A stretch of 64,000 nt of DNA. Origin: Salinisphaera sp. T31B1 (GTDB lineage: Bacteria > Pseudomonadota > Gammaproteobacteria > Nevskiales > Salinisphaeraceae). The notes under the pieces were generated by a model. That model did not search any database, was not told the origin of the DNA, and was given only the letters and a program-made list of their open reading frames with translations. Position numbers and translations under genes: made by a program. Shown in pieces: positions 53,312 through 55,991 of this stretch; the stretch's first letter is position 1; every line of letters starts with the position of its first letter. The DNA lies in assembly GCF_040361275.1 (NCBI RefSeq), contig NZ_APNH01000003.1:496001-560000 (forward strand). Reading direction: 5' to 3'.

Positions 53312-53941
53312 TTATCGCCCGGCGCGCGAGCCGTGTTCGGCACAGAGCGCGACCAGTGCGCGGGCGGCCTGTGCACTATCGCGAACGCCGAACAGGCCGC
53401 CGGCGATGGCGAGTCGATCGGCACCGGCTGCGATGATCTGCCCGGCATTATGGATATCGATTCCGCCGATGGCGACCACGGGCACGCCCAGGGCATTCGC
53501 ACGGGCGAGCACGTCGAGCTCGGCCGGCGGTGCATTCGGTTTGGTGGCCGAGACGAAAAACCGTCCGAAGCTGACATGATCGGCACCGGCGGCGATCGCC
53601 CGGCGTGCCCGGTCGATATCGTTGCCACAGGTTGCACCGATCAACCGGTCGGGGCCGAGCGCTGCGCGTGCGTCGGCGATCGATCCATCGGTGGCGCCCA
53701 GATGCACACCGACGCCCAGTTCGGCGGCTAGGCGCCAGTCGTCGTTGATGATCAGCCGCGCGTCGTAGGCACGACAGCGCTCGGAAAGGCGCAGGGCCAG
53801 CGCTCGATCCGGCCCCTGCCCGCGCTTGTCGCGATACTGGATCCAGTCGATACCGGCGGCGAGTACGGCCTCGACAGTGTCCAGGCCGTCGTCGTTGTGC
53901 GTGGATCGATCGTAGATCGCATAGATATGCGGCGTGCTCAT
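53312..53941 (-). CDS. thiE: Thiamine-phosphate synthase
   Basis: A 209-residue TIM-barrel enzyme joining HMP-PP and thiazole phosphate to thiamine phosphate. Visible motifs are IQYRDKRG near residue 34, the [18 protein letters not shown] region, and the phosphate-binding VVAIGGI near the C-terminus. The [11 protein letters not shown] segment corresponds to the family's pyrophosphate loop. Its ATG overlaps the thiD stop (ATGA). Confidence 0.92.
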
Positions 53942-54726
53942 CGCGCTGGCAGCACTCGCTCGTCGAGCCGGGCCGGGATCCGCTGACCGCGGCCGGCAGT
54001 GAAAGCGTGTTCGAGGGTATGCCAGGTATAGGCCTGCGCAGCCTCGAGCGCATCGTCGAGCTCCTGACCGCGGGCAAGCTGCGCCGCAATCGCGCTGGCC
54101 AGCGTGCACCCGGAGCCATGAAACACGCCTGCCAACCGGGGCCAGCGCATGGTACGCATCGGCTGGCCGCGCACATACAGCCGATTGACCACCTCCGAGT
54201 CGTCTTCGTCGCCTCCGGTAATCAACACGGCGCGGGCGAGATCGGACAGCTGCCGTCCACAGGCATCGATATCCGCTTGTCCATCACACAGCAGACGGGC
54301 CTCCGCGGCATTCGGGGTGATCACCCATGCGCGCTCGAACAGCTGGTCGATCAGAGCCCGGGCGACCGCATCATCGGCGAGCCGGCCGCCGCCAGCAGCG
54401 CGCAGGACCGGATCGACGACCAACGCGATGTCCGGCAGGTCCTGCGTCAGCCGCGCGATACGCGCTACCTGGTCCGCATCGGCCAGCGCGCCGATCTTGA
54501 TCGCGCCGAAGCGCATATCCGCGCACACGCAGTCCAGCGAGCGGGAAAAGAAATCGGCATCCACCGCCTGCACGTCGTACACGTTCGTGGTGTCTTGGCA
54601 GGTGAGCAGGGTGGGCACGACCGCCGCATGCGCGCCGTTCGCTGCCGCCGATTCGATATCGGCCTGCAGGCCGGCGCCGCCGCTCGGATCGTGGCCCGAG
54701 AGCACGAGAATATTGGGTCGATTCAT
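53938..54726 (-). CDS. thiD: HMP/HMP-phosphate kinase
   Basis: A 262-residue ribokinase-family kinase that phosphorylates hydroxymethylpyrimidine twice for thiamine synthesis. Motifs: GHDPSGGAGLQADI near the N-terminus, VVDPVLRAAGG in the middle and the GSGCTLASAIAAQLARG anion-hole region at the end. It is first in a thiD-thiE-hemL transcript. I looked for a TPP riboswitch upstream and did not find one. Confidence 0.92.
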   Translation of the reverse strand: MNRPNILVLSGHDPSGGAGLQADIESAAANGAHAAVVPTLLTCQDTTNVYDVQAVDADFFSRSLDCVCADMRFGAIKIGALADADQVARIARLTQDLPDIALVVDPVLRAAGGGRLADDAVARALIDQLFERAWVITPNAAEARLLCDGQADIDACGRQLSDLARAVLITGGDEDDSEVVNRLYVRGQPMRTMRWPRLAGVFHGSGCTLASAIAAQLARGQELDDALEAAQAYTWHTLEHAFTAGRGQRIPARLDERVLPAR

Positions 54727-54764
54727 ACGCGCGAGTCTAACATTCGCAACGAGCGCTCAGCGGC

Positions 54765-54773
54765 TTATGCACA
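54765..54773 (+). promoter_or_regulatory. DnaA box TTATGCACA
   Basis: Matches TTATNCACA exactly. Confidence 0.75.
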
Positions 54774-54796
54774 ACAAAAACAACGACTCGCGAATC

Positions 54797-54818
54797 GCGC
54801 CGAAATTTTTTTCGGCGC
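54797..54818. other. Perfect inverted repeat with T loop
   Basis: 9-bp arms GCGCCGAAA and TTTCGGCGC around TTTT, giving a run of seven T. It lies between DnaA boxes 1 and 2. Confidence 0.6.
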
Positions 54819-54845
54819 CGGTGTCGACACGCCGCGATCATATCG

Positions 54846-54858
54846 CAAACGATTGATT
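54846..54858 (-). promoter_or_regulatory. IHF-site consensus match
   Basis: CAAACGATTGATT on the plus strand is an exact match to the reverse form YAANNNNTTGATW of the IHF consensus WATCAANNNNTTR. Confidence 0.6.
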
Positions 54859-54956
54859 ATGAACGTTTGTGTCGAGCTGGTTACAAAATCGCCGGTTTGT
54901 CTAAATGACTGAGATTACGCGCCATCAGGGCTGTCAACCGCAAGCTTTCCACAAAG

Positions 54957-54965
54957 TTATCCACA
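54957..54965 (+). promoter_or_regulatory. DnaA box TTATCCACA (strong)
   Basis: The highest-affinity box sequence, preceded at 12-bp spacing by CTTTCCACA and followed by an AT-rich pyrimidine tract. Confidence 0.8.
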
Positions 54966-55049
54966 GCTATTGTGGGTTTCTTTTCTTTTGCTTTTAGCGT
55001 CAGCGCGTTAGCCGGAATTGCTGAGAACGAGTCTGCAGCGGGTGCCGGG

Positions 55050-55058
55050 TTATACACA
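55050..55058 (+). promoter_or_regulatory. DnaA box TTATACACA
   Basis: Matches TTATNCACA and lies inside an imperfect palindrome (55045-55070) with arms CCGGGTT and AACCCGG. Confidence 0.75.
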
Positions 55059-55200
55059 GTGTCAACCCGGTTGCTGCCTATAAAAGACTTTGATATGCCG
55101 CTGTGCGTCACTTTGAGCATTCGCAAAATCACTGGCTTGTCAATAGGATAAGCTGACATTAATGGCTGCACGCCTGATGCGCGCGTGCGCTTTCCCGAAC

Positions 55201-55215
55201 TGACCTATAAGGTCA
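55201..55215. promoter_or_regulatory. Perfect palindrome, possible operator
   Basis: TGACCT-ATA-AGGTCA, a perfect 15-bp dyad just beyond the 3' end of the cpdA-like gene and upstream of thiD. The binding protein is unknown. Confidence 0.45.
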
Positions 55216-55232
55216 CTTAGCTATCCCCAGAG

Positions 55233-55241
55233 TTATCCACA
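55233..55241 (+). promoter_or_regulatory. DnaA box TTATCCACA (strong)
   Basis: Second copy of the strong box. It overlaps the stop codon of the cpdA-like gene; CTATCCCCAG 12 bp earlier is a degenerate repeat. Confidence 0.75.
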
Positions 55242-55991
55242 GCCGACGTCGGCTGCGGATACGCGAACCACGCGGCTCACCGGTGCGCCGTGCATCGGCA
55301 GATCGATGACGCGATAACCGGGTGGGCGGTCGCGATCTTCGGCGAACGCCGCGGCGCCGGGCAGGAACTGACGCATTGTCGAAGGTGTTGTCCAGATCGT
55401 GAGCGGCCCCCATCGAGACGTGCTGGCCTGGTGTGCATGGCCCGAGAGCACGCCTCGGACATGGGGGTGACGGGCGAGCAGGGTGAGCAGTTCGGCTCCG
55501 TCTGCCAGGCCGATGGAATCGATCCATGCGCTGTTCAAGGCGACCGGCGGGTGATGGACACAGATCAATGACGGGCGACGAACGCGTGCCAGCGATGCAT
55601 CGAGTGACGCGAGCGCGTCGGCTCCGATACGGCCGTCCGCGTGGCCGGTCCGGTGGCTGTTCAGGCCATAGAGATACCCGCCGTCGACTTGCAGCGATCG
55701 GTGCACGTGGGCTTGGCTCAGGCATTGCTGCATTCGATCCGGGTCGTCGTGGTTGCCGGCCACGGCCAATACCGGGAGATCGATTCCGGCCAGCCGCCGA
55801 TCGAGCCATGTATAGCCTGCGGCCGATTCATCGTCGACCAGATCGCCCCCGAGAACCAGCGCATCGATACCGGCGGTATGGGCCAACGCGTGGCACAGAA
55901 CACGCTCGAAACAGTCGGCCACGGGCCATCCGTGCAGGCGGGCGCACGGATCGGCCAGCAGGTGAGGGTCGGTGATATGCAGAATGCGCAC
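55233..55991 (-). CDS. cpdA: CpdA-like cyclic nucleotide phosphodiesterase
   Basis: A 252-residue calcineurin-like metallophosphoesterase. Metal-binding motifs in order are DPH (ITDPHLL), GGDLVDD, GNHDD, VHHPP and GHAHQ. This order and length match CpdA of gammaproteobacteria (E. coli 275 residues), which hydrolyses cAMP; other class III phosphodiesterases remain possible. No ribosome site stands out before the ATG. Its stop codon lies within a DnaA box. Confidence 0.82.
   Translation of the reverse strand: MRILHITDPHLLADPCARLHGWPVADCFERVLCHALAHTAGIDALVLGGDLVDDESAAGYTWLDRRLAGIDLPVLAVAGNHDDPDRMQQCLSQAHVHRSLQVDGGYLYGLNSHRTGHADGRIGADALASLDASLARVRRPSLICVHHPPVALNSAWIDSIGLADGAELLTLLARHPHVRGVLSGHAHQASTSRWGPLTIWTTPSTMRQFLPGAAAFAEDRDRPPGYRVIDLPMHGAPVSRVVRVSAADVGCG

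Follow-up and report, generated by a model that had tools for sequence, protein, structure and literature searches.

The window studied here is a stretch of 64 kb from the genome of Salinisphaera sp. T31B1 (G000:C3:496001-560000), which comprises 4.36 Mb (4,357,306 bases) in nine contigs. Within it, a gap of 506 bp separates thiD from a gene for a CpdA-like phosphoesterase, and the candidate element takes up the whole of this gap (Table 1). The distance from the thiD start to the first DnaA box is 38 bp, and at the other end the last box overlaps the stop codon of the cpdA-like gene. The latter gene matches PRK11148 with 140 bits, under the curated cut-off of 225, and its closest named match is from Salinisphaera japonica. 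A search of the window against Rfam at gathering thresholds gave 0 matches. DNA similarity to the gap was found in 13 of 17 family genomes, every one of them within the genus.

Table 1. Features of the thiD/cpdA-like gap and its two flanking genes (window positions; all offsets are counted from the first base of box II)
Feature	Position	Strand	Remarks
thiD	53938..54726	-	kept as neighbour across the order
Strict DnaA box 1, TTATGCACA	54765..54773	+	offset -192
IHF consensus CAAACGATTGATT, exact	54846..54858	+ (minus strand in WATCAANNNNTTR form)	offset -111
Fis-like site GGTTACAAAATCGCC	54879..54893		offset -78; one mismatch to GNNYANNNNNTRNNC
Core box III, CTTTCCACA	54945..54953	+	weak, 2 mismatches; 3 bp before box II
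Core box II, TTATCCACA	54957..54965	+	strong; 3 bp downstream of box III
Core box I, inverted	54971..54979	-	weak, 3 mismatches; TGTGGGTTT on +; 5 bp past box II
Strict DnaA box 3, TTATACACA	55050..55058	+	offset +93; present in part of the genus
Second IHF-like site AAAGACTTTGATA	55083..55095	+	offset +126; one mismatch
Box 4: weak CTATCCCCA, 3 bp, strict TTATCCACA (55233)	55221..55241	+	offset +276
CpdA-like phosphoesterase	55233..55991	-	PRK11148 3',5'-cyclic-AMP phosphodiesterase, E 9.8e-41

An earlier note on this DNA had reported a cluster of four strict TTATNCACA boxes pointing the same way, a fifth near-match and an exact IHF consensus in an A+T-rich gap, with no dnaA in the window. 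All of this was confirmed. The strict boxes start at 54765, 54957, 55050 and 55233, all on the + strand, and the window holds no others; the near-match CTTTCCACA is at 54945 and the IHF consensus at 54846-54858; the gap has 50.2% G+C against 64.2% across the window; and dnaA sits on contig C1. It was further observed that the box at 54957 is the middle one of a three-box group whose third box is inverted, a feature absent from the earlier note. The whole T31B1 genome contains 28 strict boxes, four of which fall in the gap. At the genome's own box rate, the Poisson chance of four strict boxes in a given 477 bp is 3.7e-12, and the chance of such a cluster anywhere in the genome is about 3e-8. 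Boxes with one mismatch are not enriched in the window (14 observed vs 13.7 expected).

Box 3 was found at +93 in 6 of 13 genus loci and box 4 at +275 to +277 in 6 of 13, while IHF-like motifs with up to two mismatches occur at +125/+126 in several of the 13. Boxes 3 and 4 thus appear, from their distribution, to be an addition of a sub-lineage.

Position of the locus relative to dnaA

DnaA boxes, an IHF site and an A+T-rich gap are what could be expected of an origin, and the earlier note had put forward an origin of chromosome replication unlinked to dnaA as one of its two proposals. GC skew speaks against it. On contig C3 the skew was positive in 24 of 24 stretches (20 sampled ones and the four quarters of the window), so that no sign switch, as oriC would have, is found at the locus. 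On C1 all 10 stretches up to 566 kb had negative skew and all 10 from 580 kb onwards had positive skew; at finer scale the cumulative minimum falls at 560-568 kb, adjoining dnaA (555.7-556.2 kb), and the sign change is at most about 12 kb from that gene. In a single-contig relative (G013, 4.14 Mb) the switch lies at dnaA itself (1.454 Mb), with the element at 0.433 Mb, and the skew returns to its former sign somewhere between 3.22 and 3.45 Mb. KOPS motifs were also counted for polarity and are too rare in the sampled stretches to be of use. We therefore regard an unlinked origin at the gap as extremely improbable.

The earlier note had named two findings that together would tell against its proposals: a skew minimum at another locus and a lack of box conservation in relatives. 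The first was found, the minimum being on C1 near dnaA. The second was not, as the distances within the core and its arm are widely kept. Its other proposal, a datA- or DARS-like element, has fared much better, with a core geometry of DARS type, IHF- and Fis-like sites at kept distances and wide conservation. Judged from sequence, the element is not a second origin; its most likely role is that of a conserved site of control at which the initiator protein DnaA is recharged, with the same layout in many relatives.

The position of the element in relatives also resembles that of DARS2. In G013 it lies 0.246 of the genome from dnaA, a little under halfway along the replichore, and in four other genomes of the order the distance is 0.15-0.29 of the genome (sizes rounded; two of the four have two contigs). 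Judged in these relatives, the element is placed about midway between origin and terminus. Two genomes of one genus differ from the others placed in that their cores (G284:C1:1420711 and G377:C1:611489) are close to the expected terminus, at about 0.49-0.50 of the genome from dnaA. The dnaA region of T31B1 near the skew switch (G000:C1:555147-556555, L009) contains just two strict DnaA boxes, and these flank the gene on either side.

The three-box core and its gene neighbourhood

The core at 54945-54979 reads CTTTCCACA, 3 bp, TTATCCACA, 5 bp, inverted AAACCCACA. These gaps equal those of the DARS (DnaA-reactivating sequence) cores of E. coli read in the opposite sense. In MG1655 the DARS1 core is TTATCCACT, 5 bp, inverted TTATCCACA, 3 bp, inverted TAATACACA; the DARS2 core has weaker boxes I and III, and its gaps are equal to those of DARS1 when read from the sequence. 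PMC5742627 describes the two cores as sharing the same spacing, whereas an alignment in PMC11317965 gives the DARS2 pair a 2-bp gap instead. Box I is opposite to boxes II and III at the fixed spacing, as in DARS. The weakness of boxes III and I in T31B1 (2 and 3 mismatches respectively) counts against a DARS reading.

The arrangement is rare within the genome. Only one of the 28 strict boxes of T31B1 has both flanking boxes (up to 3 mismatches) together with an IHF site near -110, and the strict core pattern occurs once where about 1e-4 per genome would be expected by chance. Among relatives it is frequent: the strict core was found in 13 of 14 genus genomes (T31B1 included; the one with no match, G010, is 85% complete), in 52 of 85 genomes of the order and in 246 of the 369 class genomes. 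With the pattern reversed as a control, no row of the genus, order or class gave a match. The strict core is missing from 123 of the 369 class genomes, which again weighs against the DARS reading. A search that allowed any gap from 0 to 10 on either side gave 138 matches in 94 class genomes, 119 of them with gaps of 3 and 5; several of the remainder are nested CACACA repeats, and the reversed control gave one match. The genus loci were not selected by the core. The form CACA-N3-TTATCCACA-N5-TGTG is kept in 13/13 of them though the spacers vary, CACA being the last four bases of box III and TGTG standing at the same place in box I in all 13.

The genes around the core change at a greater phylogenetic distance. 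ThiD was detected by tblastn near the core in all 13 genus loci, in L058, which belongs to a different genus of the family, and in 28 of the 30 other order loci; of the two exceptions, L173 has HemL and L185 is a short contig. In 30 class loci, about 1.5 kb on each side, no match was obtained for ThiD, MutH, RppH, BioD, UvrB (searched in part) or QueG. One flanking protein family is common to 12 of these 30 loci, and all 10 of the 12 that were scanned proved to be PriA. The core directly adjoins the gene of this replication restart helicase in L142, L144, L145, L147, L160, L161 and L163-L166. We infer that the core outlasts its neighbouring genes.

This bears on the reading in which the gap is a promoter region of thiD under the control of DnaA, IHF and Fis, having no direct effect on the DnaA cycle. 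The short distance between thiD and box 1 and the presence of thiD close to the core in all but two of the 30 order loci from outside the family would fit such a role, as would the preference of E. coli DnaA for box pairs 2-3 bp apart, promoters included, described in PMC11317965. Since the core stands beside other genes elsewhere (priA in 10 of 10 scanned, with ThiD matches in 0 of 30 class loci), a role confined to thiD is disfavoured; moreover, the kept distances span about 200 bp and take in the inverted box. We consider such a promoter function quite improbable.

In S. japonica and two similar loci the distance from the core to the end of the cpdA-like gene, on the box I side, is about 100 bp or less. 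Locus L012 (PBAO01000062.1), from a metagenome bin titled Lysobacterales, looks much like that of S. japonica, and its label may be wrong.

The arm on the box III side

Upstream of box III the element carries an arm of box 1, the IHF site and the Fis-like site, whose distances to the core are kept well beyond the genus. For this comparison the order loci (L170-L199) and class loci (L140-L169) were chosen by the core alone and are the first 30 matches with DNA of each search, among the matches listed; the class loci come from 15 families and are not all independent. An IHF motif with at most one mismatch was found at -111 in 12 of 13 genus loci, at -110/-111 in 23 of 31 sampled order loci and at -108 to -111 in 19 of 30 sampled class loci, against a background mean of 0.05-0.07 matches per offset. 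A strict DnaA box is present at -189 to -192 in 28/31 order loci and at -186 to -192 in 19/30 class loci. The two-box spacing of box 1 and box II was seen in 12 of 14 genus genomes; the count of box 1 in the genus is partly due to selection because loci L059-L070, plus L058, were fetched by this two-box pattern (L073 came from a DNA search).

Of the 31 order loci, 25 have the strict Fis consensus at -78/-79; of the 30 class loci, 9 have it at -78. In the genus, a match within one mismatch at -78 is found in 13/13 loci and a strict one in 0/13, a point against the DARS reading. The claim for Fis rests on the strict matches at -78/-79 because the loose test (up to one mismatch), when slid by +60, still gives 26/31 order and 13/30 class loci, and loose matches accumulate at -10, over the core. 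Strict Fis sites were also present in 7 of 13 hand-picked class rows and, outside the class, at -80 to -76 in 16 of 22 loci of family f211 among the matches listed. Taken jointly, box 1, IHF and Fis are in place in 11/13 genus, 21/31 order and 11/30 class loci, and seven slid controls of this joint test gave 0 in every group. In L148 and L150 the IHF site is at -99 and the Fis site at -67, about one helical turn closer to the core, with the distance between IHF and Fis kept. Genes for Fis and IHF-alpha are encoded in 17 of 17 family genomes.

The pattern TGAT-N88-94-CACNNNNTTATCCACA occurs in 72 of 137 class genomes (T31B1 included) and in 34 of 261 others, and its reversed control gave 0 in all 398 rows. 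Thirty loci (L201-L230), like the f211 matches, were chosen by TGAT plus boxes III and II. Some of the 34 matches from outside the class are not this module, because seven of the 30 loci (L201-L206 and L223) are without an IHF motif; L201-L206 look like chance matches. Box I with up to two mismatches is present in only 12 of the 30 and strict Fis in 4 of the 30, which counts against the DARS reading, and a strict box 1 was found in 8 of 24 (L207-L230).

Relation to E. coli elements and proposed role

Among the closest counterparts in E. coli is DARS2, located between mutH and rppH, which has a III-3-II-5-inverted I core, a mid-replichore position away from the origin and sites for IHF and Fis. 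The gene context is different, as thiD and the cpdA-like gene stand here in place of mutH and rppH, and the T31B1 element has a strong box at -192. The side of the arm is also different. In PMC4245941 IBS1 and IBS2 are described as 3 bp apart, and shift experiments put both between the core and FBS2-3. From the sequence and this 3-bp statement we assigned them to a pair of 13-mers on the box I side (+217 to +245, with 3 bp between the two), whereas here the IHF site (-111) and the Fis-like site (-78) are on the box III side. The E. coli arrangement, with IBS1-2 and FBS2-3 on the box I side, does not appear to recur around the T31B1 core. The interval from +217 to +245 is absent from the top 8 (+) and top 6 (-) IHF offsets in the genus, order and class loci, and in the loci of S. 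japonica type the box I side is coding; both points weigh against the DARS reading. If either side is allowed, IHF and Fis sites at a fixed distance from the core, with the genes of both proteins encoded, are shared with DARS2. The best reading is that the DARS2 layout itself does not apply, the arm probably being placed opposite to that of E. coli DARS2 with respect to the core.

E. coli MG1655 has an IHF-like CAATTCTCTGATT of its own at -109, on the mutH side of DARS2 (L137:3571-3583), where the class has IHF; it falls outside the putative minimal DARS2. The idea that this motif is the mapped IBS1-2 was dropped, as the paired 13-mers on the box I side (+217 to +245) agree with what was published. 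PMC13036160 reports that a low-affinity site just outside DARS2 shows a stronger IHF peak.

DARS1, between bioD and uvrB, shares the core geometry and has faint traces (2 mismatches each) of the arm: IHF at -111, Fis at -80 and a box at -189. These motifs, if real, are degenerate, and the neighbours are other genes. According to PMC5742627, DARS1 requires no added protein in vitro. The III-3-II pair also qualifies as a double DnaA box with the 2-3 bp spacing of PMC11317965, which by itself has no inverted box, IHF, Fis or box 1.

The main rival is an action like that of datA (glyVXY-queG), in which IHF would loop two boxes of the same direction and thus promote hydrolysis of DnaA-bound ATP (DDAH) or titrate DnaA. 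In datA an IHF site lies between same-direction boxes, and here too the IHF site has a strong box on each side, box 1 and box II, both pointing the same way; the resemblance of this hairpin part to an element with the opposite job counts against the DARS reading. The next box follows the IHF site after 97 bp in datA and after 99 bp in T31B1, where it is box III. On the other hand, the distance from box to IHF is 65 bp in datA vs 81 bp here, the paired boxes sit on the opposite side of the IHF site, and datA has no inverted box at 5 bp. The set intervals of same-direction box 7-2, IBS and box 3 that define datA are thus not reproduced. A box I that is inverted and 5 bp away is a hallmark of DARS, and all 13 genus loci keep its TGTG. 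A datA-like function is in our view unlikely, though less so than the thiD promoter.

We consider it probable that the thiD/cpdA-like gap holds a DARS-type element. In E. coli, DnaA molecules bound head-to-head on boxes I and II release ADP, and DARS2 is activated by IHF together with Fis, as described in PMC5742627, PMC10380432 and PMC8682772. By analogy, ADP-DnaA would load onto the core of the T31B1 element, and the head-to-head arrangement on boxes II and I would make DnaA release its ADP as in E. coli. The apo-DnaA could then leave and take up ATP, so that the dnaA-linked origin would have more ATP-DnaA at its disposal when it next initiates. IHF would bend the arm into a hairpin and bring the DnaA bound to box 1 to the core, and Fis could set the geometry and the dependence on growth phase. 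Boxes 3 and 4 perhaps serve cooperative loading, feedback or titration.

DnaA reactivation has been worked out in E. coli, with an alignment of seven close relatives in PMC8682772. How widely the core is spread may already be known in part, as PMC10380432, citing a 2009 paper, reports DARS-like sequences in many proteobacteria. Titles and abstract openings in the literature searched contained no DARS beside thiD or in Salinisphaera, and these searches brought up no mention of the arm of box, IHF and Fis, apart from one passage that describes an additional IHF site close to DARS2 but not within it. What the present analysis adds is the tracing of the core by its spacing across the class, and the arm on the side away from the mapped E. 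coli sites. If the reading is true, it gives exact sites to mutate, predicts where DnaA is recharged in many species and opens a route to asking how DARS1, DARS2 and datA of E. coli arose.

On this last point a broader proposal can be made, which is tentative and which we hold to be possible rather than probable. The core with its inverted box could, together with the DnaA box and the IHF and Fis sites, all held at fixed helical phase, form an ancestral nucleoprotein module older than E. coli, shared by Gammaproteobacteria with one or more further classes of the phylum, in which a hairpin folded by IHF and Fis would recharge DnaA. Such a module might have stayed intact while its neighbours changed, being next to thiD here and priA elsewhere. 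DARS1 could then be a decayed copy and DARS2 a rewired one with the arm moved across the core, and the hairpin half may have been the source of datA.

Two other loci with DnaA boxes were observed in the T31B1 genome. Three strict boxes occur within 720 bp between two long membrane-protein-like ORFs (G000:C4:89412-90130, L247), possibly a second DnaA-binding locus, which lacks the core geometry and an IHF site near -110. Away from dnaA, two same-direction TTATCCACA boxes lie 174 bp apart at G000:C1:291582-291764 (L001), and one of them has a weak box 3 bp upstream.
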